A stretch of DNA of 41,366 bases. It comes from Acetobacteraceae bacterium. Lineage in GTDB: Bacteria; Pseudomonadota; Alphaproteobacteria; Acetobacterales; Acetobacteraceae. The stretch is taken from the NCBI GenBank assembly GCA_947474705.1, contig CANJJS010000042.1, positions 1 through 41,366 of the forward strand, in the 5' to 3' direction. Positions 1-32,673 of this stretch are shown piece after piece. The notes under the pieces are model-generated. The model worked only from the letters and a program-made list of their open reading frames with translations, was not told where the DNA came from and did not search any database. The position numbers and the translations under genes are program-made. Every line of letters starts with the position of its first letter. Positions within the stretch are counted from its first letter, which is position 1.

Positions 1-155
1 GTTGTCGAGGGAGGGCCTAACTGGGACCTTGAAACAGCCTCGCATGGCCCTCCCTCGACAACCCACCACCCCGGGGTTCCAAGGGCGAGCCCCTGGCGGG
101 TTCGAAGGGCGGAGCCCTCGCCGGGTTTGGGGCAGAGCCCCAACGTTTCCACAAG
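1..155. mobile_element. Dispersed hairpin element, copy A (left end outside window)
   Basis: Arms 1-17 and 46-62 are perfect reverse complements around a 28-nt loop (18-45). The right flank, about 63-155, is a run of short GC-rich palindromes closely matching the right flanks of the copies at 24284-24588 and 32419-32673. The left half lies outside the window, so no terminal repeat or target duplication can be tested. Frames open through it are by-products of the repeat. It ends about 65 bp before the MBL-fold gene and may affect that gene's expression. Treating it as a mobile element rests on comparison with the other copies. Confidence 0.7.
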
Positions 156-220
156 CACCCACGATTGCCGATGCCCGCCGTCCCGTGTCAGCGTATCGCG
201 GAACGATGGGGAGCACGGCC

Positions 221-1075
221 ATGAGTGTGTGGAAAATTGGGGATGTGACGATTACGAAGGTGATTGAGTTGGAGGCGACGGGAGGCAGCCGGTTTTTACT
301 GCCTCAGGCGACGCCGGAAGCGATTAAGCCGATTGCCTGGTTGCGGCCGCATTTCGCGGACGAGAACGGACGGTTGCGGATGAGCATTCACACGTTTCTG
401 ATTCAGACGCCGACTCATCGGGTGGTTGTCGACACGTGTTTGGGCAACGACAAGGAGCATCGAAAGATTCCGCATTGGAACAATATGCAAACGAGGTTTT
501 TGGACGATATCGCGGAGCAGGGATTCCCGCGGGAGTCGATTGACACGGTGCTGTGCACGCATCTTCACGTCGATCATGTCGGCTGGAACACGATGAAAGT
601 CGATGGGAAGTGGGTGCCGACTTTTCCCAACGCGGAATATTTGTTCGGGCGGGTGGAGCACGAACACTGGAGCACGACGGTGGGGCGCGAGGACATGCCG
701 TATATCATGGCGGATTCCGTGACGCCGGTGGTGGAGGCGGGCCTGGCGAAACTCGTGGACTACGATCATAAAATCGGCGCGGAAATCAGCCTTTTGCCAA
801 CGATTGGGCATACGCCGGGCCATGTCAGCGTGATGATCGAGTCGCGCGGGGAGAAGGCGATGATCACGGGCGATTTCATGCATCATCCCTGTCAGATCGC
901 GCACCCGGAGTGGGATACCAACGCCGACAGCGACCGGGAGCAGGGCATTCGCACGCGGCGCATCATGTTCGAACAGCTTGCGGGGTCGCCGGTTCTGGTC
1001 ATTGGCACGCATTTCGCGGGGGCGACGGCGGGCCGGATCGTGCGCGACGGCGAGACGTACCGGCTGGACGTGTGA
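221..1075 (+). CDS. MBL-fold metallo-hydrolase (lactonase-like)
   Basis: This is a 284-residue metallo-beta-lactamase-fold hydrolase. The zinc motif HxHxDH is seen as THLHVDH (H114, H116, D118, H119). Further ligands are H197 or H201 in IGHTPGH, D218 in ITGDF and H264 in GTHF. The family includes N-acyl homoserine lactonases and other esterases; the substrate cannot be read from sequence. The ATG at 221 is chosen because the frame upstream runs into repeat copy A, and homologous-looking sequence begins at MSVWKIGD. No signal peptide is evident, so it is probably cytoplasmic. A flavin monooxygenase gene follows after 34 bp on the same strand, suggesting co-transcription. Confidence 0.88.
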   Translation: MSVWKIGDVTITKVIELEATGGSRFLLPQATPEAIKPIAWLRPHFADENGRLRMSIHTFLIQTPTHRVVVDTCLGNDKEHRKIPHWNNMQTRFLDDIAEQGFPRESIDTVLCTHLHVDHVGWNTMKVDGKWVPTFPNAEYLFGRVEHEHWSTTVGREDMPYIMADSVTPVVEAGLAKLVDYDHKIGAEISLLPTIGHTPGHVSVMIESRGEKAMITGDFMHHPCQIAHPEWDTNADSDREQGIRTRRIMFEQLAGSPVLVIGTHFAGATAGRIVRDGETYRLDV

Positions 1076-1109
1076 TAGACAGGTCCCAACATTCGAAAGG
1101 AACGTTCCC

Positions 1110-2267
1110 ATGAGCTACCTGCGCAGCGGCATTTTTCTCGCGCCGTTTCACGCTCTTGGCGAAAACCCCACGCTCGCGCTGGAACGCGACATGGAGCTTT
1201 TGCAACACCTCGACCGGCTGAATTACAACGAGGCCTGGATTGGCGAACATCATTCCGGCGGCTTCGAGATCATTGGGTCGCCGGAAGTGTTCATCGCGGC
1301 GGCGGCGGAGCGGACGAAGCATATCAAACTCGGAACCGGGGTGGTGTCGTTGCCCTATCATAATCCGTTCATTCTGGCGGATCGGGCGGTGCAGCTCGAT
1401 CACATGACGCGGGGCCGGGCTATGCTGGGGGTTGGGCCGGGCGCGCTGGTGCACGACGCGAAGAAGATCGGCATCAAACCGGAAAACCAGCGGCGGATGA
1501 TGAACGAGTCGCTCGATGTCATCGTGAAACTGTTGAAAGGCGAGACGGTCACCGAGAAGACCGACTGGTACAATCTGGAAGACGCCCGCCTGCAACTTCC
1601 CAGCTACACGCAGCCGGTGATGGAAATGGCCGTGGCGGCGGCACGCTCGCCCGCGGGCGCGCTGGCGGCGGGCCGGCACGGGATCGGCATGCTGTCGATC
1701 GGCGGCACCAGCCACGAGGCGATGACGCATCACGTCGAAAACTGGAATTTCTACAGCGAGCAGGCGCGGTTGCATCACCATCAGCCGCACCGGAAAAACT
1801 GGCGTCTGGTGACGTTGTTCCACATCGCCGAAACCCGCGAAAAAGCGCGCGAGAACGTCCGGCACGGATTGGACCATTTCTGCGATTATTTCCGCGATGT
1901 CGCCACTTTCCCGATCGTGCCGGGCGATATCGAGGACCGGTTCAAATTCCTCACCGAAAGCGGCGCCGCCTGCATCGGCACGCCGGACGACGCCATCGCC
2001 CATATCGATCGCTTGTTGAAGGGGTCCGGCGGTTTCGGCGCCATCCTCGAACTCGCCCATAACTGGGCCGATTGGGCGCCGACACAGCGCCATTACGAGC
2101 TGATGGCCCGCTACGTCCACCCGCATTTCCAGGGGTCTCGGGAATGGCGCGAGGAAAGCTACGCCTATGCCCGCGACCATCACGACCAGTTCGTGGGGCA
2201 GTCGGCGGCGGCGGTGCAGGCGGAGATCGACCGGGTAGCGGCGTTGCGCAAAAAAGCCGGCGAATAA
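1110..2267 (+). CDS. LLM-class flavin-dependent oxidoreductase (limonene monooxygenase-like)
   Basis: A 385-residue bacterial luciferase-like (LLM) TIM-barrel monooxygenase, expected to use reduced FMN (or F420) and oxygen. Family features seen are the N-terminal GIFLAPFH strand, the EAWIGEHH segment, the KLGTGVVSLPYHNPF strand-loop, the DHMTRGRAMLGVGPG segment and a C-terminal GTPDDAIAHI stretch. Overall it resembles limonene 1,2-monooxygenase-type members, but the substrate is inferred. The ATG at 1110 has a GAAAGG ribosome-binding site at 1095-1100; upstream in-frame sequence overlaps the MBL gene in another frame and is not coding. It is probably co-transcribed with the MBL-fold gene, which could hydrolyse an ester or lactone product. 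Confidence 0.85.
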   Translation: MSYLRSGIFLAPFHALGENPTLALERDMELLQHLDRLNYNEAWIGEHHSGGFEIIGSPEVFIAAAAERTKHIKLGTGVVSLPYHNPFILADRAVQLDHMTRGRAMLGVGPGALVHDAKKIGIKPENQRRMMNESLDVIVKLLKGETVTEKTDWYNLEDARLQLPSYTQPVMEMAVAAARSPAGALAAGRHGIGMLSIGGTSHEAMTHHVENWNFYSEQARLHHHQPHRKNWRLVTLFHIAETREKARENVRHGLDHFCDYFRDVATFPIVPGDIEDRFKFLTESGAACIGTPDDAIAHIDRLLKGSGGFGAILELAHNWADWAPTQRHYELMARYVHPHFQGSREWREESYAYARDHHDQFVGQSAAAVQAEIDRVAALRKKAGE

Positions 2268-2280
2268 GCCGAACCTGACG

Positions 2281-2304
2281 GAGGGGCCGGCGAGCCGGTC
2301 CCTC
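2281..2304. terminator. Hairpin between convergent genes
   Basis: A 10-bp stem (one G-U pair) pairs 2281-2290 with 2295-2304 around a tetraloop. It lies between the convergent stops of the flavin monooxygenase (2267) and ridA-like (2314) genes. There is no U-tract, so Rho-independent function is uncertain. Confidence 0.5.
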
Positions 2305-2313
2305 CTGCTCAGA

Positions 2314-2703
2314 TTAACCGCCGATGACGGCGGTAAACGCACATTGGATTTGCGCCGGACTGTTCGCGGGCAGCGCCTGCGTATGCCGCGCGGGCCGGGC
2401 GTCCGGGTCCGGGAACATTTTTTCCCACTCGCCATTCAGCGCGGCGCGACCGGCGGCCTGATCCTTGGCCCAGAACTCGATTTTCAGGAAATCGTCCGGC
2501 GTCCCACCGGCCGCGGCGATCGCGGCGGCGAGGTGCTGAAACAGGCATTTCACCTGATCTTCCAGCGAGTCCGGCATTTTTCCGGTCGCCGGATCGCGCG
2601 GGCCGATGACGCTCGACATCACCATGTTCCCGATCCGGCTGGCGTTCGGGATCGGGTTGGAATGACTGAAGCCCGGCCAGTTGATGCTTTGACGCTTGGC
2701 CAT
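2314..2703 (-). CDS. RidA/YjgF/YER057c family protein
   Basis: A 129-residue single-domain protein of the Rid family, whose archetype RidA hydrolyses reactive enamine/imine intermediates. Seen are the N-terminal NPIPNASRIGNMVMSSVI strand region, the LEDQVKCLFQHLAAAIAAAGG helix and DDFLKIEFW. R106 in PARHTQAL appears to sit where the carboxylate-binding arginine of E. coli RidA lies. The C-terminus departs from the canonical RxxVEV form, so this is probably one of the Rid subgroups tied to a catabolic pathway rather than RidA itself. It starts 3 bp after the stop of the VOC gene, indicating a mmgE-VOC-rid operon. Confidence 0.82.
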   Translation of the reverse strand: MAKRQSINWPGFSHSNPIPNASRIGNMVMSSVIGPRDPATGKMPDSLEDQVKCLFQHLAAAIAAAGGTPDDFLKIEFWAKDQAAGRAALNGEWEKMFPDPDARPARHTQALPANSPAQIQCAFTAVIGG

Positions 2704-2706
2704 GGC

Positions 2707-3303
2707 TCAGACGGTCTCCTTGATTTGTCCCGCTGGGGCGCCGAACACGGGCGCGTTTTCAAGGTCGTCGACCAAAGCCTCCGGCCCCTCGGTCGGCAGG
2801 CTGGCGGCATAATTCAAGGCACCGTCGATATCGCCTTCCCAGACATCGCGCGGCAATTCGTACAGCAGTTCGACGCCGTAACCATTGGGGTCGTTGATGT
2901 ACAGGCTGTGAGTCATGCCGTGATCGACGCGGCGGTTGAACTTCACGCCGCGCTCTTGCAGGTAGGCGAGACGGGCCAGCCAGCCCTCGCGCGTCGGGAA
3001 GGTGATGGCGACGTGGTTGATCGCCACGGGCGTGCCGAACATGCTCCAGTCCTTCGGCGGCGCCGGCAAAGCGGGATTTTCGACCAGCGCGATGTCGTGG
3101 TGATTGTCCTTGCCCGCGTGATCGGCGCTGTAAAAGCGCATGTTCGGCGGGTTGGGCCGGTCCGGCCGGGCTTTCAACTGCCCCACCTGCTTCATGCCGA
3201 CGATCTCGGTCCAGAACACATGGGCTTCTTCCATGTTCCGGACGTTCAGCACGAGGTGATTGACGCCCGAGGGAACGCCGGGTTGGGTCGCGTGATCGGC
3301 CAT
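2707..3303 (-). CDS. VOC-family (glyoxalase/extradiol dioxygenase-like) protein
   Basis: A 198-residue vicinal-oxygen-chelate protein with two beta-alpha-beta-beta-beta modules. Module one begins VNHLVLNVRNMEEAHVFW and module two INHVAITFPTREGWL. Likely metal ligands are H16, H97 and E145 (in GYGVELLYE), with H68/H69 nearby. The C-terminal DPNGYGVELLYELP is typical of catechol 2,3-dioxygenase-like VOC proteins. Ring cleavage of an aromatic diol is possible, but isomerase or lyase activity cannot be excluded. It is the middle gene of a tight minus-strand operon, 42 bp after the MmgE/PrpD gene and 3 bp before the Rid gene. Confidence 0.85.
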   Translation of the reverse strand: MADHATQPGVPSGVNHLVLNVRNMEEAHVFWTEIVGMKQVGQLKARPDRPNPPNMRFYSADHAGKDNHHDIALVENPALPAPPKDWSMFGTPVAINHVAITFPTREGWLARLAYLQERGVKFNRRVDHGMTHSLYINDPNGYGVELLYELPRDVWEGDIDGALNYAASLPTEGPEALVDDLENAPVFGAPAGQIKETV

Positions 3304-3345
3304 TTCTTATCTCCTGTTTCGCGCTCTGGGCGCCAGTTTCCTTGG

Positions 3346-4743
3346 TTATTCGCCGGCCATGCGCGCGGCGTTCAGCGGCGTCGCGTGGTGAGTCAGACCG
3401 GATACGTCGGCGGAGGTGTGGATCGCCAGCACCGCCTCGGACAGCGCCGTGGCGCGTTCCGGACCGAGAATGGCGTTGGTCAGACCGAAGAACTTGGCTT
3501 TCAGTTCCCCTTCCGTGAGGAAGTTGCCGGGCTCGCCCTTGGGCACGATCACCGCTTGTTCGTACACGCGGTTCCCCGCTTTTATGGTCAGAATGCCAGA
3601 CATGTTGGTGGGGAATTCGTCTTCCATGGCCTGGTCGAACGCGCAGGTGACTTTGGGCAGCAGGCTCCGGATCGTGGGGTCGTTCAGCAATTGGTAGCTG
3701 TCCCAGCCCATGGCGCCGGTCGCCAACGCCGCCGAAATCACGAAGGGGCCGCTGAACTGGCCGTCGACCGTGTTGCGCGGGTCGGCCTTCTTCTCCGGCG
3801 GGTTGCCGATCAGGGTCATGCCGGATTTCGGCAGGCCGAGCCGGATCGAGTCGATATCGGCGGGTTTCAGATCGTTCGCCGCGCGCAACGCCAGCGCCGC
3901 GTCGATGCCCGCGTGGCCGTAACGGCAGGAGGGATACGGCTTCACGGCGGTGTTCATCAGTTCGAACACCGTCCCCAGATCCTGAACCGCGCGCTCCGGC
4001 GTCGGGTTCGGGGCATAGGCGCGCATGAAGCCGTGGCGGCCGTCGAGCGCATCGGTGGAACCCTTGAACCCTTCCCGCACCAGAACGGCGGACATCAGCC
4101 CGTTCACCGCGGCCCATCCAACCTGGGAGCGTTTGGTCCAGGCGCCATTGTGCAGGAATTGCAGAGTCCCGGACGTCTGCGACTGCACGGTGCCCATGGC
4201 GTTGGCGATGCCATCGGCGTCGAAGCCGAAGATCCGGCCCGCCGCGACCGCCGCGCCGAACGCGCCGCAGGTGGCCGTGGGGTGGAAGCCGCGGTCGTAA
4301 TGCGCGCCCGCGGGCAGGGCCAAGGCGATGCGGCAGGTGACCTCGTAACCCGCGATAATGCCGGCGAGGACATCGGCACCGGACGCGCCCACCATCTCGC
4401 CCGCCGCGATGGCGGCGGGAATGACCGGCGCGCCAGGATGCAGGGAGCCGGCGGCGTGGGTGTCGTCGAAGTCGAGCGAGTGCGCCAAAGCGCCATTCAG
4501 AAAGGCGGCGCCGGTGGGGGTGTAGCGGGCGGCATCGCCGAACACGCCGGCGTTGCCGTTGGCCATGCCCATGGCGCGGACGGCCGAGACGAAGGCGTTC
4601 GTGCTCTCCGCGTCGTGCCGGGCGCGAACGATGTTGCCGACGAGGTCGAGGACCAGGAAGCGCGCGCGGGTCACGATTTCCGGCGCGAGGTCTGAGATTT
4701 TCAGGTTGGCGCAGAATTCGGCGAGCTGGCTGGTCACGCCCAT
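3346..4743 (-). CDS. MmgE/PrpD family protein
   Basis: A 465-residue member of the MmgE/PrpD fold family (2-methylcitrate dehydratase, cis-aconitate decarboxylase, iminodisuccinate epimerase). Seen are the N-terminal all-helical domain with LVLDLVGNIVRARHD, the conserved ALAHSLDFDDTHAAGSLHPG segment near residues 80-100, the CGAFGAAVAAGRIFG helix, and KPYPSCRYGHAGIDAAL in the small domain. Secondary-catabolism paralogs of this family are common, so the substrate is open. The ATG at 4743 has GGAG about 11 nt upstream; a TTG at 4815 in frame is a less likely start. It is the first gene of the mmgE-VOC-rid operon, and hairpin element copy B sits 76 bp upstream in its promoter region. Confidence 0.87.
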   Translation of the reverse strand: MGVTSQLAEFCANLKISDLAPEIVTRARFLVLDLVGNIVRARHDAESTNAFVSAVRAMGMANGNAGVFGDAARYTPTGAAFLNGALAHSLDFDDTHAAGSLHPGAPVIPAAIAAGEMVGASGADVLAGIIAGYEVTCRIALALPAGAHYDRGFHPTATCGAFGAAVAAGRIFGFDADGIANAMGTVQSQTSGTLQFLHNGAWTKRSQVGWAAVNGLMSAVLVREGFKGSTDALDGRHGFMRAYAPNPTPERAVQDLGTVFELMNTAVKPYPSCRYGHAGIDAALALRAANDLKPADIDSIRLGLPKSGMTLIGNPPEKKADPRNTVDGQFSGPFVISAALATGAMGWDSYQLLNDPTIRSLLPKVTCAFDQAMEDEFPTNMSGILTIKAGNRVYEQAVIVPKGEPGNFLTEGELKAKFFGLTNAILGPERATALSEAVLAIHTSADVSGLTHHATPLNAARMAGE

Positions 4744-4809
4744 GACGGTCGATGCTCCGATGTTTGACGGCAGTGTGCCCGAAAAGTCCGGAACGTGGAA
4801 GCGCTCGGC

Positions 4810-5159
4810 GCGCAAATGGCAGGCAAATCGGGCGAAGCAAGAGAGTCCCAGGGCTCCGCCCCGGACCCCGTGGGGGGCGCTGCCCCCTCAACCCCCGCCA
4901 AGGCAGGGCCTTGGATGCCGTCTGTTTGGGGGAGATGAAGAAGGGGGCCTACACGGACATTGAAACCGTCTCGCATGGCCCCCTTCTTCATCTCCCCCAA
5001 TTAAATGGGTCCAGGCTTGCCCCTGCGAAGGCGGGGGGCCCCCGCCCTGGTGGGGTTCGAAGGGGCGACGCCCCTCGCGGGCGCGATCCGCTTCGCGGCT
5101 CTCGGGGGCGGAGCCCCAAGGCTTTCCTTCCTTCGCCCGATTGCCCTGGCGCAAATGGC
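4810..5159. repeat. 11-bp direct repeat flanking copy B (target-site duplication candidate)
   Basis: GCGCAAATGGC occurs at 4810-4820 and again at 5149-5159, immediately outside the element. The last base of the left copy is also the first base of the element's terminal repeat, so the strict duplication is 10 bp (4810-4819 and 5149-5158). An exact match abutting terminal inverted repeats on both sides is the expected footprint of transposition. Confidence 0.75.
4820..5148. mobile_element. MITE-like hairpin element, copy B (329 bp)
   Basis: The ends 4820-4837 and 5131-5148 form an 18-bp inverted repeat with 16 matches (CAGGCAAATCGGGCGAAG on the left). Inside lie short GC-rich palindromes, then a central hairpin with perfect 24-bp arms (4926-4949 and 4977-5000) and a 27-nt loop (4950-4976). 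No transposase or credible CDS is present, so it would be non-autonomous. It is nearly identical to copy C (18114-18421) outside the loop. It fills most of the 511-bp gap between the divergent mmgE/prpD and MetX-like genes. The rest of that gap, 5159-5254, shows no clear feature beyond a weak GGAG near 5240. Confidence 0.85.
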
Positions 5160-5254
5160 GGAGAGGGGGCCCGCCGCGCCTGGTATTCCCGGCGAAAGAC
5201 GAATACGCTGGTCCAGACGGGCGAGAACCCACGCAAGAACGGAGCAACCGGACG

Positions 5255-6322
5255 ATGAAATCGCTGTTATGGACGATGTGCGCGGCGATGCTCGCGACGA
5301 CCGCGGCCGGGACGGGGCCGGCGAAGGCGGAGACCGAAGCGGTGTTCGACGCGGGCAAATTCGCCTTCGAGAATGGCGGCGAAATTCCGAACATGAAGGT
5401 GGGTTACGTCACCTGGGGCACGCTGAACGCGGCGAAGAGCAACGCGATCCTGCTGGTGCCGGGAACGAGCGGGACGCGGCATTCGTACGATCGGCATATC
5501 GGTCCCGGCAAGACCTTCGATACGGACAAGTATTTCGTGATTGGGGCCGATCCGATCGGCGGCGGTACCTCGTCCTCGCCGAAGGATGGGCTGGGAGTGG
5601 CGTTTCCCCGCTATACCATTCGCGACATGGTGCGGGCGCAGCACCGGCTGGTGACACAGGGACTGGGGATTTCGAAGCTGTTCGCGGTCGGCGGCAGCTC
5701 CATGGGATCGTTTCAGACGGTGGAATGGGGGATCGCGTTTCCGGACGCGATGCGCGGGCTGATCATGCTGGTGCCGGCGGCGCGGAGCGACAATCATTTC
5801 GCCGCCGTGGTGGATGCGTTCGAGGCGACGATCACGCTCGATCCCGCGTATATGGGCGGGGCGTACAAGACGAACCCGGTGGAAGGGATCAAACGCGCCG
5901 CGCTGATTTATTTCCCTTGGCAGACCAGCGACGAGTTTCTGATCGGGTTGGACGCGGCGGCCTATGAAGCGGCGAAAAAGGCGACGGGGGAACGTTGGGT
6001 CAAGGAATGGGACGCGACGTCGATGCTGTGGCGGTATTACGCCAGCCGCGGGCACGATGCCTCGAAGCCGTTTGGCGGGGACATGATGAAGGCGTTGGCG
6101 CGGATCGTGGCGCCGGTGTTGTTGTTGCCGAGCATGACGGATCGGACAATCCCGGGATATTTGACGCGGGAGTTGTATCGGGGTCTTCGCGGACAGGTGG
6201 AATATGCCGAAATTCCGTCGATCAAGGGGCATTCCGCCGCCGGGGCCGGTCCGGGGACCGCGGAGTATGGGTTCGTCAGTGAGAAGATAAGGGCGTTTTT
6301 GGCGGGGTTGGGGGCGCCGTGA
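5255..6322 (+). CDS. Secreted alpha/beta-hydrolase, MetX-like
   Basis: A 355-residue alpha/beta-hydrolase resembling the homoserine O-acetyltransferase (MetX) branch. A signal peptide (MKSLLWTMCAAMLATTAAG) with a probable cut after AKA at residue 25 implies export, which is atypical of true MetX. The nucleophile elbow is GGSSMG with S149. VGYVTWGTLN, the oxyanion region LLVPGTSGTRH, and the GADPIGGGTSSSP loop are MetX-like. A late acid (MTDRTIP) and histidine (KGHSAAG) complete the triad. Export argues for an esterase or acyl hydrolase role rather than methionine synthesis. It is transcribed away from the mmgE operon across copy B. Confidence 0.85.
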   Translation: MKSLLWTMCAAMLATTAAGTGPAKAETEAVFDAGKFAFENGGEIPNMKVGYVTWGTLNAAKSNAILLVPGTSGTRHSYDRHIGPGKTFDTDKYFVIGADPIGGGTSSSPKDGLGVAFPRYTIRDMVRAQHRLVTQGLGISKLFAVGGSSMGSFQTVEWGIAFPDAMRGLIMLVPAARSDNHFAAVVDAFEATITLDPAYMGGAYKTNPVEGIKRAALIYFPWQTSDEFLIGLDAAAYEAAKKATGERWVKEWDATSMLWRYYASRGHDASKPFGGDMMKALARIVAPVLLLPSMTDRTIPGYLTRELYRGLRGQVEYAEIPSIKGHSAAGAGPGTAEYGFVSEKIRAFLAGLGAP

Positions 6323-6425
6323 GTTCCCGCCGATTGTTAGCGGACGAAGTACACGCCGGCCGGGCTGGTGGACAACACACCGCCGGCGCGTGAAGACTGG
6401 CGCGACCGAAGACGAGGAGGGCGGG

Positions 6426-6821
6426 GTGAAGGTTATCGAAGGCGGATGCCTCTGCGGGGCTTCGCGATACGTGGCGCGCGGAGAACCGATCAACGTACGC
6501 GTTTGCCATTGCAGGGTGTGTCAGCGGGCGCTTGGCGCGGCGTTCAATGCCCGGGTGCTGATGCCTCTGAGTGGGGTTACGATGACCGGCCCGCTGGGGC
6601 GGCGCAATTCCTCGCCCGTTCTGGTCCGCGGTTTTTGCGCGGTTTGCGGGACGTCGTTGTTCACGGAACGGGCGGGCGCGGGTGTCATCGGGCTGACGTG
6701 CGGAAGCCTGGATTTGCCGGAAGATTGCCAGCCCACCGAGCATATCTGGACGTCGAGCAAGCAGGCATGGCTGACGATTGACGATGGGTTGCCACAGTAT
6801 CCCGAGGGCGCGCCCGCCTGA
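6426..6821 (+). CDS. GFA-domain (CENP-V/GFA) zinc-binding protein
   Basis: A 131-residue protein of the GFA family (fold of glutathione-dependent formaldehyde-activating enzyme). The zinc-binding cysteines are clear: C8 and C10 in GGCLCG, C27/C29/C32 in CHCRVC, and C71/C74 in CAVCG. The LTCGSLDLPEDCQPTEHIW segment is typical. Most members have no proven formaldehyde activity, so the substrate is unassigned. GTG at 6426 is preferred over the in-frame ATG at 6390 because a strong GAGGAGG (6414-6420) sits 5 nt ahead of it. The 60 bp to the convergent tartrate dehydrogenase-like gene hold no clear terminator. Confidence 0.87.
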   Translation: MKVIEGGCLCGASRYVARGEPINVRVCHCRVCQRALGAAFNARVLMPLSGVTMTGPLGRRNSSPVLVRGFCAVCGTSLFTERAGAGVIGLTCGSLDLPEDCQPTEHIWTSSKQAWLTIDDGLPQYPEGAPA

Positions 6822-6881
6822 GGCATCGCGGCCGTTTCAGGGCCGTTCAGGATCGGCGCGCCTCGGTTCCAGGGGGCGCCG

Positions 6882-8376: not shown

Positions 8377-8392
8377 GGCTCGATCTCCTTGG

Positions 8393-18103: not shown

Positions 18104-18431
18104 TGGCCGGTGGCAGGCCAATCGGGCGAAGGAAGAGAGTCCCAGGGCTCCGCCCCGGACCCCGTGGGGGGCGCTGCCCCCTCAACCCCCGCCAAGGCAG
18201 GGCCTTGGATGCCGTCTGTTTGGGGGAGATGAAGCAGGGGGGCCATCGAGGACGTATCGACGTCCGTGTAGGCCCACCTGTTTCATCTCCCCCAATTAAA
18301 TGGGTCCAGGGGCCCCGCCCTGGTGGGGTTCGAAGGGGCGACGCCCCTCGCGGGCGCGATCCGCTTCGCGGCTCTCGGGGGCGGAGCCCCAAGGCTTTCC
18401 TTCCTTCACCCGATTGCCCTGAGGCCGGTGG
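18104..18431. repeat. 9-10 bp direct repeat flanking copy C (target-site duplication candidate)
   Basis: GGCCGGTGG is found at 18105-18113 and 18423-18431. Extended by one base (18104-18113 and 18422-18431) it becomes a 10-bp repeat with one mismatch that abuts both ends of the element. Confidence 0.65.
18114..18421. mobile_element. MITE-like hairpin element, copy C (308 bp, inverted loop)
   Basis: Terminal inverted repeats 18114-18131 and 18404-18421 match at 16 of 18 positions and have the same end sequence as copy B. The central hairpin has 25-bp arms (18220-18244 and 18271-18295, two mismatches) and a 26-nt loop (18245-18270). The flanks are colinear with copy B apart from about 21 bp missing right of the hairpin, but the loop is reverse-complemented relative to B. 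It occupies most of the 406-bp gap between the convergent GT2 and topA genes; the remaining 18432-18492 shows nothing recognisable. Confidence 0.83.
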
Positions 18432-24283: not shown

Positions 24284-24588
24284 GGGAGGAGAGGCCGGCG
24301 GAGGCGGAAACCCCAGGGCTTCGCCCCGGACCCCACGAGGGGCTTTGCCCCTTCGAACCCCACCAGGGGAACGTCCCCTGGACCGCGATCGATTTTTGGC
24401 CGGCGATCGAGGGAGGGCCTTCCACGGACGTCTCGACAGCCTCGCATGGCCCTCCCTCGATCGCCGGCCAAACCCCGGGGTTCCAAGGGCGAGCCCCAAA
24501 GGCCCATTGGGGCGGGGTCGAGGGGCCGAGCCCTCGTGGGGTCTGGGGCAACGCCCCAGGGCATCCGCCTCCGCCGGCCTTTCCTCCC
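24284..24588. mobile_element. MITE-like hairpin element, copy D (305 bp)
   Basis: The ends 24284-24308 and 24564-24588 are 25-bp inverted repeats with one mismatch, unlike the ends of copies B/C or E. The central hairpin has perfect 25-bp arms (24395-24419 and 24448-24472) and a 28-nt loop (24420-24447). Between arms and ends lie short palindromes shared almost verbatim with copy E. I found no convincing flanking direct repeat. It fills most of the 442-bp gap between the divergent LLM and NUDIX genes; 24589-24650 shows only a ribosome-binding site for the latter. Confidence 0.78.
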
Positions 24589-25577: not shown

Positions 25578-26567
25578 ATGAAAGCCGGACTTTTCGTTAC
25601 ACTTGAAACCGAATCGCGTTTCGACGTTTCGGACCATTTGCGCGATATCTCGGCGCAGGTGATGGCGGCGCGCGACGCGGGGTTCGAGTCGTTATGGTTT
25701 CCGCAGCATTTCGTCACGGGTCCGAGCATGCGTCAGTTCGCGGCCTCGCCGATCATGGGGTATTTGGCGGGCATTTCCGGTGGCATGCGCATGGGCACGG
25801 CGGTGTTGTTGTTGCCGATGTTGAATCCGGTGTTGCTGGCGGAGGAAGCCGCGACTCTCGACCACCTCACGGACGGGCGTTTCGTGTTGGGGGTTGGGCT
25901 TGGTTACCGCGATCACGAATTCGCGGCGATGGGGATCGAGCGGAAGTCGCGTGTTCCGCGGTTCCGGGAATATGTCCAGGCGATGCGGCTGATGTTCACC
26001 CAGGAGCATGCGACGTTTCACGGGAAATACGTGAAGCTCGACGATGTCAGCATCAGTCTTCGCCCGAAGAACCCGGCGGGCGTGCCGATCTGGATCGGCG
26101 GCACGGTGCCCGACGCCGTCCGCCGCGCCGCCGAGCTTGGCGATTCCTGGCAGGGCGCCGGCGCGATGAGCATGGACGAGATGAAGCGCTGGTGGGGCGT
26201 GTTCCACGAGGCGCGGGTCGAATACGGCAAATCTCTGGATTATCCGCGGCAGGTGTCGCGCGAATGTTTTTGCGGTCCGGGCATGAACGCGGCGCTGGAG
26301 ATGGCGGCGGGTCCGATTGCCGCGAAATACACGCGTTACGCGGGTCATGGATTCGGTGGATTCGAAGGCGGGACCGACGGCTTCCGGCAATTCGCGCAAG
26401 ACCGGTTCGTGGTCGGGGACGAGGCGTATGTGCGGGACGAGTTGCAACGCTACCGCGACGAACTCGGCGCGACGGAATTCCGCTTCCGCATGAACTGGCC
26501 GGGACTGCCGGAAAAAGAAGTGCTCGCGAGCATCGCGCGGGTCGGAAAGATCGTGGCCACTTTGTAA
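25578..26567 (+). CDS. LLM-class flavin/F420-dependent oxidoreductase
   Basis: A 329-residue luciferase-like TIM-barrel enzyme. Seen are MKAGLFVTLETE at the N-terminus, ARDAGFESLWFPQHFVTGP, MRMGTAVLLLPMLNPVLLAEEAATLDHLTDGRFVLGVGLGYRDHEFAAMG, the LRPKNPAGVPIWIGGT strand and VGDEAYVRDELQRY at the end. This is the compact form shared by FMN- and F420-dependent members; the cofactor cannot be decided. It is the third LLM gene in this window and the second within 3.5 kb. It is probably expressed separately from the NUDIX gene or weakly coupled to it. A strong hairpin follows. Confidence 0.87.
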   Translation: MKAGLFVTLETESRFDVSDHLRDISAQVMAARDAGFESLWFPQHFVTGPSMRQFAASPIMGYLAGISGGMRMGTAVLLLPMLNPVLLAEEAATLDHLTDGRFVLGVGLGYRDHEFAAMGIERKSRVPRFREYVQAMRLMFTQEHATFHGKYVKLDDVSISLRPKNPAGVPIWIGGTVPDAVRRAAELGDSWQGAGAMSMDEMKRWWGVFHEARVEYGKSLDYPRQVSRECFCGPGMNAALEMAAGPIAAKYTRYAGHGFGGFEGGTDGFRQFAQDRFVVGDEAYVRDELQRYRDELGATEFRFRMNWPGLPEKEVLASIARVGKIVATL

Positions 26568-26573
26568 CGACGG

Positions 26574-26602
26574 ACGCGGCGGGCCCGGACGGCCCGCCGC
26601 GT
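26574..26602. terminator. Strong hairpin between convergent genes
   Basis: A perfect 12-bp GC-rich stem pairs 26574-26585 with 26591-26602 around a 5-nt loop. It sits 6 bp after the LLM stop and 11 bp before the stop of the opposing gene. There is no U-tract. Confidence 0.6.
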
Positions 26603-26613
26603 CATGCCGAAGG

Positions 26614-27327
26614 TCAGACCGAGACTCTCGCGCCACCAAAAATATTGCGCGCGATTTTCGCCATGGTACCGTACGACATCGATTGCCCGATTTGCCGGTG
26701 CATACTACTCCAGTGCACCTTCGAATCCATCTCCGTCCCAAACCGCCCCTTCTCCGTATCCGGCCCCTCCTGTGCCCGGACAAACACGATCCCGACACCC
26801 TTACTCACAAGCAGGCCGTCGCGGCTAAGCTGACGCATCGCGCTGGACAAGGACTGGTGGTGTTTACGCATCCACTTGAATTTTCCACTTCCTCCGCCTG
26901 AAGATGTCGGTACGAAACGGTACACCGGCAACTGAAACATATTGTTCAGAATGACACAAATACCGGCGATGAGTTTCGAGCGATGGCGGGCGTCGCCATA
27001 ATCCCAGGTCAGGCCATACGCGGATATCTGACCGCCTTCCGCCTGAATGCCGGCGTTGATCCCCGAATGCCTGGCGACATATTCCATGCCACGCACCAAG
27101 GTATCGGCGTCTTTCGCCCAAAGGCCCAAGGCGGCGTCGCCGTCGAGCGTGGTCAGGATCATCGGATTGGTTCGGGTGCGAATATGCTGATCGTCGACCA
27201 GAACATAATCCTGATCGCCGTTTTCAACTTCGGCTGTCCCCATCGCCATGAGAGAGTAAATCGACGTCGCCGGATGGCTCGACTTCGCATACCATGAAAT
27301 TGGAATTGAGATTTGTAACACACGCAT
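26614..27327 (-). CDS. Protein of unknown function (unrecognised)
   Basis: I do not recognise this 237-residue protein. ATG 27327 has GGAG 7 nt upstream and starts MRVLQISIPISWYAKSSHP. No signal peptide or membrane span is seen. The first half carries GDQDYVLVDDQHIRTRTNPMILTTLDGDAALGLWAKD; a Gly-rich hinge (TSSGGGSGKFKWM) precedes a second half with MRQLSRDGLLVSKGVGIVFVRAQEG. Its base composition is less GC-rich than its neighbours and its upstream region is AT-rich, both hinting at horizontal transfer. It is divergent from hrpB and convergent with an LLM gene, with no operon partner. Confidence that it is a real gene rests on the ribosome-binding site, the hairpin at its end and non-repetitive composition. 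Confidence 0.65.
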   Translation of the reverse strand: MRVLQISIPISWYAKSSHPATSIYSLMAMGTAEVENGDQDYVLVDDQHIRTRTNPMILTTLDGDAALGLWAKDADTLVRGMEYVARHSGINAGIQAEGGQISAYGLTWDYGDARHRSKLIAGICVILNNMFQLPVYRFVPTSSGGGSGKFKWMRKHHQSLSSAMRQLSRDGLLVSKGVGIVFVRAQEGPDTEKGRFGTEMDSKVHWSSMHRQIGQSMSYGTMAKIARNIFGGARVSV

Positions 27328-27505
27328 CGATATTCTCCGGTTCGATCGGACGCTCGGCGATTTCCAAATGCCTCGGCCTTTCCGAAACGGTTTACGCCCA
27401 GGCGAAGCGTGGCTCAATATAAATTTATTGGAATATTATTTTTTATACATGCGCGTTCCGGCGGCCCACTTGCATCCGCGCGCCGCACAGGCAAAGCCAG
27501 AACCC
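27328..27505. promoter_or_regulatory. AT-rich divergent intergenic region
   Basis: This 178-bp gap separates two divergent genes. Positions about 27414-27450 are a pronounced AT island (AATATAAATTTATTGGAATA and a T-run followed by TATACA) in otherwise GC-rich DNA, a likely place for a promoter or for binding of a nucleoid protein. No well-spaced -35/-10 pair could be fixed. Confidence 0.4.
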
Positions 27506-29950
27506 ATGACCGCCTCATTCCCCGATCTCCCCGTCGCCGACGCCTTCCCCGCGCTCTCCGCCGCCCTCGACGCGAGCCAGGCCGCCGTCCTTGTCGCACC
27601 GCCGGGCGCCGGGAAAACCACGCTCGTGCCGCTGCATCTGCTGTCCGCGCCCTGGCGCGGCGACGGCAAGATCCTCATGCTGGAACCCCGCCGCCTCGCC
27701 ACCCGCGCCGCCGCGACCCGCATGGCCCATCTTCTTGGCGAACCCTTGGGCCATACCGCCGGTTTCCGCACACGCCTCGAGTCCGCGATCTCCCCCGCCA
27801 CGCGGATCGAGGTCGTGACCGAAGGGTTGCTGGTCCGGCGCCTGCAATCCGACCCCGGCCTGGACAATGTCGCCGCGGTAATTCTGGACGAGGTCCACGA
27901 ACGCTCGCTTGAATCCGACCTCGCGCTGGCGTTGTGCCTGGATCTTCGTAAGATGCTGCGCCCGGAGTTGCGGTTGATCGCGATGTCCGCCACCGCCGAC
28001 GGCGCGCGCCTCGCCGGGCTGATGGACGCCACCGTCATCGAAAGCCAGGGGCGCATGTTCCCGGTCGAGGTTCACCACGCCAAAGCCGACATCGCCGTCC
28101 CGCGCGAACTGCCCGACGCCATGGCCCGCGCCGTTCGCGCCGCGCTGGCCTCGCACGAGGGCGATATTCTGGCCTTTCTGCCCGGGATGGCGGAGATACG
28201 CCGCACCGAAACCGCGCTCGCGGGCTGTAGCGCGCTGGTTTTGCCGTTGCATGGCGAGCTTCCCCCCGCCGAACAGGACCGCGCCCTCCGCCAGGCCGAG
28301 TCCCGGCGGGTGGTGCTGGCCACCTCGATCGCCGAGACCTCGCTGACCGTGCCGGGCGTGCGCATTGTCGTCGATGGCGGCTGGCGGCGGGTGCCCCGGC
28401 TCGATCCGTCCACCGGCCTGACGCGGCTGGCGACGGTTCGGGTGTCGCGCGCCGCGGCGGATCAGCGCGCGGGGCGCGCCGGGCGGGAAAGCCCAGGCGT
28501 GGCGATTCGGCTGTGGACGCCGGCGCAACATCGGGGGCTGGCGCCGTTCGACCGGCCGGAAATCCTGGAGGCCGAACTCTCTTCCCTTGTCCTGGACTGC
28601 GCCGCCTGGGGCACGCCGCCGGGCGAACTAAAATTCCAGGACCCACCCCCGTACGGCGCCCTTACCGCCGCGACCGCCTTGCTCACCGAACTCGGCGCGC
28701 TGGAGGCGGGCGGTATCACGCCGCTGGGACAGCGGATGGCCGGACTCGGTTCGCATCCGCGGCTGGCGGCGATGATGCTGGCGGCGGAGACGGCGGGGGA
28801 GAAGGCCATGGCCGCCGACCTCGCCGCGCTGCTGGAGGAACGCGATCCGATCCGGCCCCCCAGAGGCGCGCCCGACGCGCCCGCCGATATCGAGACCCGC
28901 CTGCTCGCCATCCGCCACGGCGATCCCGACGCGGACCGTGGCGCGCTGTCGAGGATACGGCGTGCCGCCGGACAGTATCGCCGCCGCCTGCGCATCCCCG
29001 GCGGCCTTGAAGGCGATGGCCATCCGGGCCGTCTGCTGGCCGCCGCTTTCCCCGACCGCATCGGCCAGCGCCGGGGCGAACCGGGCTCGTTCCGTTTTTC
29101 CGGCGGTGGCGGCGGGCGTATTTCGAAGACCGATACGCTGGCGGGCGCGAACCTGCTGGTCGCCGCCGCGTTGGACGTCAAATCCGCGGCCCGTATCCGC
29201 CTGGCGGCGCCGCTCGACCCGGACGACCTGCCCGCCGCTTTGGCCGCGCGGGTCACCGAACAGGTGGAGGCGGGATTCGACCCTGTCTCCGGCGCGGTGC
29301 TCGCGCGCCGGCGGCGACGGTTGGGCGTGCTGGTGCTGAGCGACCGGACCGTGCCGGTCGATCCCGCCGATGTCGCCGGCATTCTGGCGGACACGATCGC
29401 GGGTCAGGGTCTGAAACCGTTGAAATTCTCGGACACCGTCCACCAGTTCCGTGCCCGGGTCGCGTTGATGCGCGGGATTGAGCCTGACGCGGACTGGCCC
29501 GATTTGTCCGACACCGCCTTGATCGCGACTGTGCGCGACTGGCTGGCCCCACACCTGCACGGCATGGCGCGCCTGTCCGACCTCGAACGGCTCGATCCGT
29601 TGGCAATCCTGTCGGGCCTGCTGCCATGGGCGTTGCGCCAGCGCCTGGATCAGGCTTTGCCGACGCATCTGTCGTTGGCGAAGGGGCGCGCCCAGGTGGA
29701 TTATTCGCAGCCGGTTCCGATGGCGGAGGCGCGGGCGCAGTGGTTTTATGGGATGACCGCGACGCCGAAACTGGCGGAGGGCCGCGTGAAGCTGCGCCTC
29801 GCGCTGCTGTCTCCGGCGGGCCGGCCGATCGCGGTGACCGCCGATCTCGGCGGGTTTTGGAAGGGCGCATGGGCGGACGCGCGGCGGGACATGCGGGGGC
29901 GGTATCCGAAGCACGATTGGCCGGAGGATGGGGGACAGGTTCCCGCCTGA
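27506..29950 (+). CDS. hrpB: ATP-dependent helicase HrpB
   Basis: An 814-residue DExH-box helicase of the HrpB family, length as expected. Motif I is PPGAGKTT (32-39), motif II is DEVH in ILDEVHERSLESDLAL (near 128), motif III is SAT in AMSATADG (near 160), and motif VI is QRAGRAGR (near 320-327). TSIAETSLTVPGVRIVVDGG is typical of DEAH/RHA helicases. The HrpB-specific C-terminus follows with GRVKLRLALLSPAGRPI and the end motif WADARRDMRGRYPKHDWPEDG. Its cellular role is poorly defined. ATG 27506 is chosen because the frame upstream crosses the AT-rich intergenic region and lacks family similarity. Confidence 0.94.
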   Translation: MTASFPDLPVADAFPALSAALDASQAAVLVAPPGAGKTTLVPLHLLSAPWRGDGKILMLEPRRLATRAAATRMAHLLGEPLGHTAGFRTRLESAISPATRIEVVTEGLLVRRLQSDPGLDNVAAVILDEVHERSLESDLALALCLDLRKMLRPELRLIAMSATADGARLAGLMDATVIESQGRMFPVEVHHAKADIAVPRELPDAMARAVRAALASHEGDILAFLPGMAEIRRTETALAGCSALVLPLHGELPPAEQDRALRQAESRRVVLATSIAETSLTVPGVRIVVDGGWRRVPRLDPSTGLTRLATVRVSRAAADQRAGRAGRESPGVAIRLWTPAQHRGLAPFDRPEILEAELSSLVLDCAAWGTPPGELKFQDPPPYGALTAATALLTELGALEAGGITPLGQRMAGLGSHPRLAAMMLAAETAGEKAMAADLAALLEERDPIRPPRGAPDAPADIETRLLAIRHGDPDADRGALSRIRRAAGQYRRRLRIPGGLEGDGHPGRLLAAAFPDRIGQRRGEPGSFRFSGGGGGRISKTDTLAGANLLVAAALDVKSAARIRLAAPLDPDDLPAALAARVTEQVEAGFDPVSGAVLARRRRRLGVLVLSDRTVPVDPADVAGILADTIAGQGLKPLKFSDTVHQFRARVALMRGIEPDADWPDLSDTALIATVRDWLAPHLHGMARLSDLERLDPLAILSGLLPWALRQRLDQALPTHLSLAKGRAQVDYSQPVPMAEARAQWFYGMTATPKLAEGRVKLRLALLSPAGRPIAVTADLGGFWKGAWADARRDMRGRYPKHDWPEDGGQVPA

Positions 29951-29995
29951 GCCGCCCCCAGGCGACGGCGCGGAGATAAAGGGCCCGCGATCGCC

Positions 29996-30355
29996 CTATC
30001 GCGCGCAGATGGTGAAATCCGAGCCAACCCAGCAGGCCCGGTCCTTCGCGGATCGCCGCGCCTCGCCCCACCGGGAATTGATCCCGTCCTTTGTCAGGCC
30101 CCGCACATCCGCCACCCCCGGCGACATCACCGCGAGGTAAACCGAGATGATGCCCGGATAGAGGTTTCTGTTTTTGTCGCGATGGCTCAGGCCGAAGGAG
30201 CCATCGGCGCCATCGGCGAAGAACTCGCAGGGACCGGACAGCACGACCTTGCCACCGGATTCGATGCGGCAATCGGCGGTCTTCGCCGAGCCCGCCATCG
30301 GCCACGCAGCGACCGCCAGCCCCAGGACCACCCCCGCCCACACCGCGCGCGCCAT
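29996..30355 (-). CDS. Small secreted protein of unknown function
   Basis: A 119-residue protein with a clear signal peptide (MARAVWAGVVLGLAVAAWPM, cut near AGSA). The mature part has four cysteines (in ADCRIE, GPCEFF, RACWVG and FTICAR), suggesting two disulfides in the periplasm. ATG 30355 is preceded by GGAGGG at 5-nt spacing; an in-frame start farther upstream (30418) would bury the signal peptide. No family is recognised. It is divergent from the HtrA-like gene, with a 208-bp shared upstream region. Confidence 0.72.
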   Translation of the reverse strand: MARAVWAGVVLGLAVAAWPMAGSAKTADCRIESGGKVVLSGPCEFFADGADGSFGLSHRDKNRNLYPGIISVYLAVMSPGVADVRGLTKDGINSRWGEARRSAKDRACWVGSDFTICAR

Positions 30356-30459
30356 CGTCACCCTCCAACTGTAAGCCATCGCCCCTTTGGCCATCGCCCC
30401 TCCGGACGAACCGCCCACCCCTTACAACAAACCCCGGCTCATCCGCTATCCACCGCATG

Positions 30460-30497
30460 AACAAGGCTTCATCATTCCGGCTCAATGATTTCTTGTT
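30460..30497. promoter_or_regulatory. Nested dyad upstream of htrA-like gene
   Basis: AACAAG (30460-30465) pairs with CTTGTT (30492-30497), and inside it ATCATT (30471-30476) pairs with AATGAT (30484-30489). The dyad lies about 66 bp before the HtrA start, inside the divergent intergenic region 30356-30563, in an AT-richer patch. It could be an operator for the neighbouring response regulator. Confidence 0.35.
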
Positions 30498-30563
30498 GCG
30501 CGCCCCGGCCGGTGCCATGTCCATTTTTCGCCGCCGCCAGCCCGCCAGGAGTCCGCCCCGCCC

Positions 30564-31619
30564 ATGCCGCCCGCGTCCCGCTTTCTCCGCCTGTCGTTCC
30601 TGGCGGCGCTGTTGCTGCTGAACGGTTGCGCCGCGGTGGCCCGGGGCGCGCCCGACAGTTTCGCGCCCCTGGTCAAGAAAGTCCTCCCGGCCGTGGTCAA
30701 CATCGCGGTGACCGAGGCCTCTCCCGTCCGCGACCTGAACCGCGCCATCCCGCCGGAGTTGCGCGACACCCCGATGGGCCGCGAACCGCGGCGCCGCTTC
30801 GGCGACGGGCGCCAGCGCAGCATGGGCGCGGGCTCCGGCTTCATCGTCGATCCTTCCGGCGTCATCGTCACCAACAACCACGTGGTCGGCCGCGCCGAGC
30901 GGATCGTCGTGTCCCTGACCGACGGACGGCAATTTCCGGCGCGGCTGATCGGCCAGGATCAACTCACCGACATCGCGGTCATCAAGATCGAGGCCGGGGG
31001 CCCCCTCCCCTTCGTGACCTGGGGGGATTCCCGGCGGATGGAGGTCGGCGACTGGATCCTCTCCGCCGGCAACCCGTTCGGCCTGCGGGGATCCGTGACC
31101 GCCGGCATCGTTTCGGCCGAGGGCCGCGATCTCGGCAGCGGTCCGTTCGACAATTTCCTGCAGATCGACGCACCGGTGAACCCCGGCAATTCCGGCGGTC
31201 CGGTGTTTAATATGGACGGGCAGGTGATCGGAGTGAGCGCGGTGATCGTATCACCCACCGGCGCCTCGGTCGGGATCGGCTTCGCCATTCCCAGCGATTC
31301 CGCCGCCCCGGTGGTCCGCCAACTCATGGCCAAAGGCACCATCGCCCGTGGCTGGCTGGGCGTGTCGCTGGAAGACGGCGAGGCCGGCGCGGCCGTCGCC
31401 GGCCTGGAACCCACGGGCCCGGCGGCGAGCGCGGGGCTGCGGACCGGCGATCTGGTGGTCGCGGTCGATGGCGCCGCCGTCGCGAGCGCGCGCGATCTGA
31501 TCCGGGCGGTGGCGACGGTCGCCCCCGGCAAACGGACCCGCGTGACCGTGCACCGGGACGGCCAGACGTTGGACGTGCCCGTCGTGGTCGGCCAACGGCC
31601 GACCGCGCAGACAAGATAG
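30564..31619 (+). CDS. HtrA/Deg-type trypsin-like serine protease, predicted lipoprotein, one PDZ
   Basis: A 351-residue S1C protease. The N-terminus has a basic/hydrophobic signal ending in LLLLNGC, a probable lipobox with acylated C22 followed by Ala, predicting a lipid anchor, perhaps in the outer membrane. The triad is H106 (TNNHVVG), D136 (LTDIAVI) and S210 (GNSGGPVFN). A single PDZ domain spans about 255-345 (ARGWLGVSLED ... GLRTGDLVVAVDG). One PDZ is DegS-like, but DegS is anchored by a transmembrane helix. A perfect 8-bp hairpin (31586-31604) overlaps the 3' end. It precedes a response regulator by 108 bp, so it is likely part of an envelope-stress circuit. Confidence 0.9.
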   Translation: MPPASRFLRLSFLAALLLLNGCAAVARGAPDSFAPLVKKVLPAVVNIAVTEASPVRDLNRAIPPELRDTPMGREPRRRFGDGRQRSMGAGSGFIVDPSGVIVTNNHVVGRAERIVVSLTDGRQFPARLIGQDQLTDIAVIKIEAGGPLPFVTWGDSRRMEVGDWILSAGNPFGLRGSVTAGIVSAEGRDLGSGPFDNFLQIDAPVNPGNSGGPVFNMDGQVIGVSAVIVSPTGASVGIGFAIPSDSAAPVVRQLMAKGTIARGWLGVSLEDGEAGAAVAGLEPTGPAASAGLRTGDLVVAVDGAAVASARDLIRAVATVAPGKRTRVTVHRDGQTLDVPVVVGQRPTAQTR

Positions 31620-31727
31620 GGGGTCGGCCAACGTCTGGCCACGAACCAAACCACGGCTGGCCAGAACCCCGCCGCCAGAGCAAATGACAGCGCACCCGCC
31701 GCGCGGCGCGCGTGAAGGAGTCGAGCA

Positions 31728-32414
31728 ATGCGTATTCTCGTGGTTGAAGACGACAAGGATGTGGCCGGCTTCGTGGTCCGAGGCCTGAAAGAAACCGGCC
31801 ACATCGTCGAACACGCCGATAATGGCCGCGACGGGCTGTTCATGGCCGCCAGCGAAAACTTCGACGCCATCGTCCTCGACCGCATGCTGCCCGGCGGGAT
31901 CGACGGGCTGAAAATCCTGGAAACGCTGCGCGCGCAGAAAAACGCGGTGCCGGTGATGATCCTCTCAGCCCTCGCCGATGTCGATGAGCGCGTGAAGGGT
32001 CTGAAAGCGGGCGGCGACGACTATCTCACCAAACCCTTCGCCTTCGCCGAACTCCTGGCACGCGTCGAAGCCCTTGGCAGACGCGGCAAGGCCGAGGCCA
32101 CCCAGACCAAACTCGTCGTCGAAGACCTGGAACTCGACCTGCTGTCGCGCCAGGTCAAACGCGCCAACCAGAAAATCGACCTGCAACCGCGCGAATTCCG
32201 CCTGCTGGAATATTTGATGCGGCACGCCGGACAGGTCGTCACCCGCACCATGTTGCTGGAAGGAGTCTGGGATTACCACTTCGACCCGCAAACCAACGTC
32301 ATCGACGTCCACGTCTCCCGCCTGCGCCAGAAAGTGGACAAACCTTTCCCCATCCCACTGATCCATACCGTCCGCTACGCCGGCTACATGCTCCGCGCCG
32401 AAGCGGCGAGTTGA
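31728..32414 (+). CDS. OmpR/PhoB-family response regulator
   Basis: A 228-residue two-domain regulator. Receiver: acidic pocket E7/D8/D9 in VVEDDKD, phosphoacceptor D51 in IVLDRMLPG, S80 and K102 (YLTKPF). The winged-helix DNA-binding domain covers about 130-222: LDLLSRQVKRANQKIDLQPREFRLLEYLMRHAGQVVTRTMLLEGVW and VIDVHVSRLRQKVD, ending TVRYAGYML. The start has GAAGGAG upstream. Its kinase gene follows on the same strand, but 259 bp of repeat element E separate the two, where a short gap or overlap is usual. Confidence 0.95.
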   Translation: MRILVVEDDKDVAGFVVRGLKETGHIVEHADNGRDGLFMAASENFDAIVLDRMLPGGIDGLKILETLRAQKNAVPVMILSALADVDERVKGLKAGGDDYLTKPFAFAELLARVEALGRRGKAEATQTKLVVEDLELDLLSRQVKRANQKIDLQPREFRLLEYLMRHAGQVVTRTMLLEGVWDYHFDPQTNVIDVHVSRLRQKVDKPFPIPLIHTVRYAGYMLRAEAAS

Positions 32415-32418
32415 TCGT

Positions 32419-32673
32419 GGTTGGAGACCCCGGGGCTCTGCCCCGGACCCCGCGAGGGGCTTTGCCCCTTCGAACCCCACCAGGGGAACGTCCCCTGGAC
32501 CGCGATCGATTTTGGCCGGTTGTTAAGGGAGGGCCATGCGAGGCTGTTTCCACGTCCGTGGAAGGCCCTCCCTTAACAACCGGCCAACCCCGGGGTTCCA
32601 AGGGCGAGCCCTTGGTGGGGTCGAGGGGCGAAGCCCTCGTGGGGTCCGGGGCAAAGCCCCGGCGTTTCCACCC
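32419..32673. mobile_element. MITE-like hairpin element, copy E (about 255 bp, inverted loop) inside a two-component operon
   Basis: The ends 32419-32446 and 32646-32673 are imperfect inverted repeats (24 of 28). The central hairpin has perfect 24-bp arms (32512-32535 and 32564-32587) and a 28-nt loop (32536-32563). Flanking palindromes are nearly the same as in copy D and in the same orientation, but the loop is reverse-complemented relative to D. It starts 4 bp after the response-regulator stop and ends just before the kinase ATG. TGATC occurs just outside both ends (32412-32416 and 32675-32679), too short to call a target duplication. The hairpin could reduce kinase expression by acting as a terminator or by masking its start. 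Confidence 0.78.

Follow-up and report, generated by a model that had tools for sequence, protein, structure and literature searches.

Co-varying hairpin arms in a family of apparently mobile elements with ISAs1-type ends, probably kept matched by arm-to-arm copying

A stretch of 41,366 nucleotides from an Acetobacteraceae bacterium (assembly GCA_947474705.1, contig CANJJS010000042.1, positions 1 to 41,366), hereafter called the window, contains five copies of an intergenic element built of nested palindromes around a core hairpin. The arms of this hairpin differ in sequence from copy to copy and are nearly always matched within a copy. The family, which numbers about 90 copies in the genome, looks like high-copy non-autonomous mobile elements, or miniature inverted-repeat transposable elements (MITEs), with ISAs1-type ends. 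It is rather likely that its arms are kept identical by template switching during replication, one arm being copied onto the other.

The five copies are those reported in an earlier note on this DNA, whose arm lengths of 17–25 bp, loop lengths of 26–28 nt and count of four perfect hairpins all hold; no strand is assigned to any of them. Copy A (1–155; core hairpin 1–62) is partial, the contig start falling within its left arm; the 17 bp of arm that are visible are perfect, with a loop of 28 nt. Copy B (4820–5148; complete, 329 bp) has its core hairpin at 4926–5000 with arms pairing 24/24 and a loop of 27 nt. The arms of copy D (24284–24588; core hairpin 24395–24472) pair 25/25 and those of copy E (32419–32673; core hairpin 32512–32587) pair 24/24, both with a loop of 28 nt. 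Copy C (18114–18421; complete, 308 bp; core 18220–18295) has arms of 25 bp that mismatch at two positions, and its loop is 26 nt long. The mid-arm text reads GGCGATCGAGGG in D and GGTTGTTAAGGG in E, each matched on both arms, as the earlier note had pointed out. The loop of C is inverted relative to that of B; the E loop is likewise inverted against that of D and, by inspection, that of A. The two subfamilies proposed at the time, B/C and A/D/E, are set apart by different flanking shoulders.

With copy B as query, 95 matches were obtained in the window's own genome, and 81 with copy D, both strands and pieces being counted. Sixty stretches around these matches were taken for study. Cores were located by their flanking shoulders alone, never by pairing. 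A plain scan gave 73 intervals, from which one chance match (L048:7251, 9/22 paired) was taken out to leave 72 cores; copy A is missing from this set, its left shoulder being off the contig. Together with 20 further matches of a covariance model, which fall outside the stretches taken and were not inspected, the total is about 90 copies. The length of the core is nearly constant (hairpin of 69–78 bp, loop as a rule of 26–28 nt), and in most of 69 aligned copies the arms open with TTGG and close with GGCC.

The arms of 53 of the 72 cores pair 22/22; 67 cores pair at 21 positions or more, the minimum is 17, and there are 28 mismatches among 1584 pairs. Control chimeras each joined half of one copy to half of another from its own subfamily, the best-pairing register being used for real cores and chimeras alike, and 244 of 2616 were perfect. 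In the alignment of 69 cores, 95.3% of the 1635 cells pair, versus 72.3% with shuffled partners and 42.9–65.8% when the partners are slid by 1–3 columns. Changes on both sides are seen in 18 of the 24 pairs, and the covariation score is 0.586, versus 0.176 when shuffled and at most 0.183 when slid. The excess of pairing is far beyond chance. Arm differences amount to 2.7% within copies versus 15.1% between copies in B/C, and to 1.3% versus 23.4% in A/D/E (13.6% between copies without four that have wholly different arms), the A/D/E arms having been re-anchored for these figures since one alignment misplaces some of them. A perfect ancestor followed by free drift would give similar values within and between copies, which is not what is seen. 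The many copies, different arms and conserved pairing predicted in the earlier note are all found, and its proposal of a process that holds the arms identical while their sequence drifts is supported, in a family larger than first noted.

The manner in which the arms change bears on the nature of this process. Cells changed on both sides number 40, versus 14 that are one-sided or unpaired, in 33 B/C copies, and 65 versus 6 in 28 A/D/E copies; this count left out 3 of 36 B/C and 3 of 31 A/D/E cores with length offsets, and two A/D/E cores that are unclassifiable. In these 61 copies, 41 distinct two-sided variants comprise 22 transversions and 19 transitions, counted per column and not as independent events, many of them coming from the four A/D/E copies with wholly different arms. 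Several copies have 4–11 changed columns matched on both sides, some of them adjacent (L025, L052 and L053); in these three, a block GAGA is replaced by TGTT on both arms. Single two-sided substitutions with the loop unchanged occur in L034 and L040:5072. G-U cells make up 12 of 1635 on the aligned strand (<1%). With transversions frequent and G-U rare, the arms do not follow the usual drift of RNA stems through G-U. Transition types account for 10 of the 23 arm mismatches in genome G000 (four G.T, six A.C, 13 other) and for six of 12 in G043 (three G.T, three A.C, six other), in hairpins that were found by pairing, so that the mismatch rate is biased low.

These features make it unlikely that the arms are maintained by selection on a folded RNA, the hairpin acting in transcripts through their stability, processing or regulation and compensatory mutations being selected. 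Recurrent loop halves and an apical GGCC on a variable, covarying stem would be the classic pattern of such selection, codirectional genes flank 35 of 59 classifiable copies, stable hairpins are reported in MITE transcripts of other bacteria in the available part of a review (PMC10969869), and 15 of 20 arm mismatches in the related genome G033 are of transition type. Yet G-U cells are rare, the 22 transversions have no G-U intermediate, and each of some 90 dispersed copies would need its own constraint. Both orientations of the loop are common (see below), so that it is not read in one sense. A search of the window against Rfam gave no match at the gathering threshold, and a structured RNA family was rejected on this and on the G-U count. 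Among the processes put forward in the earlier note, hairpin-templated copying fits best, and selection on an RNA structure is a poor fit.

The two halves of the loop are unlike and read, each from its arm, approximately TACxCGGACGTTG and ATGCGAGGCGGTTG. Its orientation relative to the shoulders, called with a score threshold that we set, is one way in 19 B/C copies, the other way in 10 and unclear in seven (29 of 36 classifiable); in A/D/E the numbers are 13 versus 14, with four unclear and two unclassifiable (27 of 33 classifiable). Copies L034 and L056 have a letter-identical core, comprising 23-bp arms and the loop, in opposite orientations to the shoulders. Near or full symmetry is seen in a few loops, with the second half-type present twice (L041:1349) or the first half-type present twice (L074:3999 and L140:4795).

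Template switching between inverted repeats reportedly leaves homogenised arms together with an inverted spacer, in the accessible portions of three papers (PMC8604942, PMC8794818, PMC7202029), and the homogenised arms and inverted loops found here match this footprint. Pairing that is maintained with few G-U cells, with transversions, with blocks and with loop flips points to a process of DNA copying. From these footprints we infer the following steps. During replication, the nascent strand would fold back at the hairpin, or switch to the other strand, and an imperfect arm would be rewritten from its partner, by template switching or quasipalindrome correction. The same event resolved otherwise would leave the loop inverted or make it symmetric. 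New arm sequences would arise when a mutation or an exchange between copies hits one arm and is then copied to the other.

More tentatively, the life cycle of the element may itself rewrite one half from the other via a hairpin intermediate, at each round of movement or replication. Both arms would then be regenerated from the hairpin, the structure and the loop being kept and the arm sequence left free to run. If true, this would account for the outer arms that change together (described below), for the loop inversions and for core arms that are largely specific to a species.

Whole cores could be replaced, and matched arms spread within a species, by ectopic gene conversion between dispersed copies, and most species shown do have their own arm sequences (G043 and G016, as well as G006 and G007, share some). 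Exchange between copies seems to occur. The elements at L029:4036–4110 and L032:1524–1598 have the left arm and loop in common and different right arms; L032, which pairs 17/22 and has no flanking repeat, looks from its sequence like an unrepaired exchange. However, exchange spreads variants without creating matched ones, and within one arm it breaks pairing, as in L032. Gene conversion alone cannot yield the single two-sided substitutions with unchanged loop of L034 and L040:5072, and we consider it improbable.

Sites in relatives include the empty ones that the earlier note had predicted. The site of copy B in G033, the closest relative found, is a 297-bp spacer, poorly alignable, with neither hairpin nor element. 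The site of L062:4096 in G033 lacks the element and either outer arm, so that at this locus the outer arms arrived with the insert. For that site, this contradicts insertion into the loop of a pre-existing terminator hairpin, and outer arms formed as an inverted target duplication. The interval between the genes that flank copy D is about 110 bp in G004, with no element, and the site of copy E, for which five of 29 loci compared gave both flanks, is 44–108 bp, with no element, in G003, G004, G031 and G036.

In G033, an element likewise occupies the site of copy E, in the same position adjoining the start codon of the downstream gene; DNA identity around it is 76–81%. The two cores differ at nine of 24 arm positions (six transitions and three transversions), and both are perfect. 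An occupied site in both genomes with rewritten, matched arms argues for long-term maintenance. An independent insertion in the same place is possible, as is an exchange with other copies that replaced the core.

The E site also bears on a role of the hairpin in mobility. If a DNA hairpin or cruciform were needed for movement, only elements with perfect arms would transpose and perfection would reflect recency. The elements look mobile, the same hairpin plan is met in most species of the genus though the arms differ, and the core hardly varies in length, all of which would be consistent with this possible but doubtful account. Against it, the divergence of arms between copies is 6 to 18 times that within copies (about 10 times for A/D/E without the four wholly different copies), the site common to G033 is perfect in both species despite its nine changed positions, and short elements without the hairpin (98, 144 and 220 bp) look inserted in two of three cases.

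In the window's genome, gene order relative to G033 breaks at all three elements of L031 (G000:C2:15500–35300), and places free of elements break too. Elements as the cause of such breaks were set aside, as a family hairpin stands beside only one of the L031 junctions in the 12 stretches of G033 compared.

The identification of the elements as MITE-like, which was not made in the earlier note, comes from their ends. Copies B and C start with CAGGC(A/C)AATCGGGCGAAG, which recurs almost unchanged, in inverted orientation, at their other end. This ISAs1-type 21-bp terminal motif lies at 4820–4840 and 5128–5148 in B, and at 18114–18134 and 18401–18421 in C, as inverted copies, with direct repeats of 9–10 bp outside them. 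The repeat GCGCAAATGG, at 4810–4819 (no strand assigned) and again at 5149–5158, is a probable target duplication of copy B; around copy C, the 9-bp repeat GGCCGGTGG is found at 18105–18113 and 18423–18431. With up to three mismatches allowed, the motif has 56 matches in the genome, versus one for the reversed motif, and it stands at both ends of 17 elements in the stretches taken. Direct repeats flank 11 of these 17, versus one of 272 cross-pairs: six are exact repeats of 9–10 bp, four are of 10 bp with one mismatch and one is of 7 bp. The results on ends and flanking repeats rest on these 17 elements, none of which is A/D/E, a subfamily whose ends are undefined.

ISAs1 elements produce flanking repeats of 8–10 bp. 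The present elements, of 98–330 bp, are too short for a transposase. A candidate parent insertion sequence (IS) of 1255 bp lies in the same genome at C193:1967–3221, with an open transposase frame of 381 residues that matches the ISAs1 equivalog model NF033564 (E = 2.3e-110). The end motif CAGGNNAATCGGGTGAA is common to the elements and this IS, one base differing at one end; no direct repeat was seen around the IS. A second ISAs1 match in the genome, C200, also has similar ends. ISAs1-type ends, flanking repeats and a matching IS in the genome make the elements look like MITEs, and the transposase of the C193 IS is their putative mover.

Short elements with the same terminal motif and no core hairpin in the hairpin scan were observed at L029:2068–2165 (98 bp), L055:3933–4076 (144 bp) and L027:7011–7230 (220 bp). 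In two of the three, the flanks carry a 10-bp direct repeat containing one mismatch.

Many copies, often those of A/D/E, have as their outermost layer an inverted repeat specific to the copy, which in copy D reads GGAGGAGAGGCCGGCGGAGGCGGA; copy D folds into a single long hairpin (z = -11.6). Outer arms match their own partner better than 95% of cross-pairs do in 18 of 33 A/D/E and five of 36 B/C copies. These counts use thresholds set per subfamily, the B/C copies sharing their ends. With a single pooled threshold, 31 of 69 copies exceed it, and four of 69 in a control outside the element; in farther regions (90–170 and 100–170), 27 and 16 of 69 do so. These outer repeats, the inversion of the E loop, and the end motif and direct repeats of B and C had been missed in the earlier note.

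Gene orientation, called heuristically without gene models, places 35 of 59 classifiable copies between tandem, 19 between divergent and five between convergent genes, 10 further copies being ambiguous. By the same heuristic, copy D lies between two divergent genes. Copy E has codirectional genes on either side, and its end adjoins the start codon of the downstream gene. Bidirectional transcription terminators, selected for the strength of their stem, would also be intergenic, GC-rich hairpins. Such a function is most improbable given the few convergent contexts, for which this reading was dropped, the position of copy E and the lack, in all five window copies, of a T-run following the core arm.

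Among 33 genomes of the genus, 23 have matches to the covariance model of the core (E ≤ 0.001). Matches counted by strand are at least 147 in the window's genome, 144 in G043, 80 in G033 and 0–68 in the other genomes of the genus. Inspection of the top locus in every matched genome showed the only match of G035 to be another repeat type and that of G011 to pair weakly (13/24); with these two set aside as doubtful, 21 of 33 genomes were kept, including G014, in which the outer 24 bases pair 14/24 ungapped. Arm sequences are mostly species-specific in the species shown. Outside the genus, under stricter filters, weak model matches were obtained in four of 141 other genomes drawn from the class; these four were rejected as carriers, as their best matches are GC-rich hairpins of another repeat type. 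The exact loop pattern was found in only two record sets among the genomes of 84,980 species, from which the organism's own records may be left out.

Two other kinds of palindrome were met in these genomes. GC-rich hairpins of the form CCCTCCC...GGGAGGGG, with a somewhat similar plan and a wider taxonomic range, are present in other families of the class and in G043 (L264, L265, L266 and L267, and also L156:1515 and L164:4007). A second palindrome family with CGTCATxGCC is present in G033 and G043 (for example at L157:10456–10533, L138:7321–7402 and L154:2696–2789); its tag recalls the CGTC-tagged class of repetitive extragenic palindromes (REPs) described in the accessible text of PMC3733652.

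Several observations weigh against arm-to-arm copying during replication. Some arms are still imperfect (copy C, L029 and the L032 chimera). About half mismatched is the state of most loops, and loops that stay unlike require that something besides copying separates or protects their halves; the recurrence of the half-motifs across species hints at selection. The mismatches of G033 (eight G.T, seven A.C and five other) are predominantly of transition type, and this genome alone leans toward the pattern of a G-U tolerant stem. Six of the nine differences at the E site are transitions. Apart from E, the occupied sites common to G033 are syntenic on one flank or fall at the end of a contig, and the comparison included no close strains that could reveal a single copying event. 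Whole-core replacement by exchange among copies could also be at work.

Among known systems, bacterial IS-derived MITEs such as Correia, ERIC and QMITE resemble the present elements, according to the available part of the review PMC10969869, in their short length, many copies and mostly intergenic location, and in their terminal inverted repeats, target duplications and possible stable hairpin transcripts. The inversion of Correia elements is also mentioned there. The present elements differ from them in their ISAs1-type ends and in nested palindromes with arms that vary between copies and yet are matched; the words ISAs1 and compensatory are absent from the main text of the review. ISAs1-family IS (NF033564) have a similar end motif, and flanking repeats are of 9–10 bp here, whereas the elements lack room for a transposase. 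REPs with GTAG- and CGTC-tagged palindromes (PMC3733652, in the part available) are likewise high-copy extragenic palindromes, but most cores here have no GTAG or CGTC end tag, and the elements are about ten times longer and have flanking direct repeats. REPs, or bacterial interspersed mosaic elements, with a REP-associated tyrosine transposase (RAYT) were rejected, as there is no tagged palindrome of 20–40 bp and the arms read TTGG...GGCC in most of the 69 copies; a RAYT gene was not searched for.

Closest to the proposed arm copying are quasipalindrome correction and template-switch mutations, by which, in the accessible portions of PMC7202029, PMC8794818 and PMC8604942, imperfect repeats are turned perfect, several bases change at once and the spacer is inverted. 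Those reports concern reporters, RNA genes and yeast coding genes, whereas here a mobile family with about 90 copies per genome, in most species of a genus, would be affected. Neither this family nor an ISAs1-type MITE whose nested palindromes change together was found described in a literature search that largely lacked subscription journals. The kind of element and the mechanism are each known already; what seems new is their combination and its scale.

Compensatory changes between paired arms are usually read as selection on RNA structure. The present family is a warning that covariation need not imply a functional RNA. From the sequences of such a large natural set, one could estimate how often arm copying, inversion and repair take place. 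If the element's own life cycle does rewrite its arms, this would give a MITE an inbuilt self-correction that is heritable and preserves structure.

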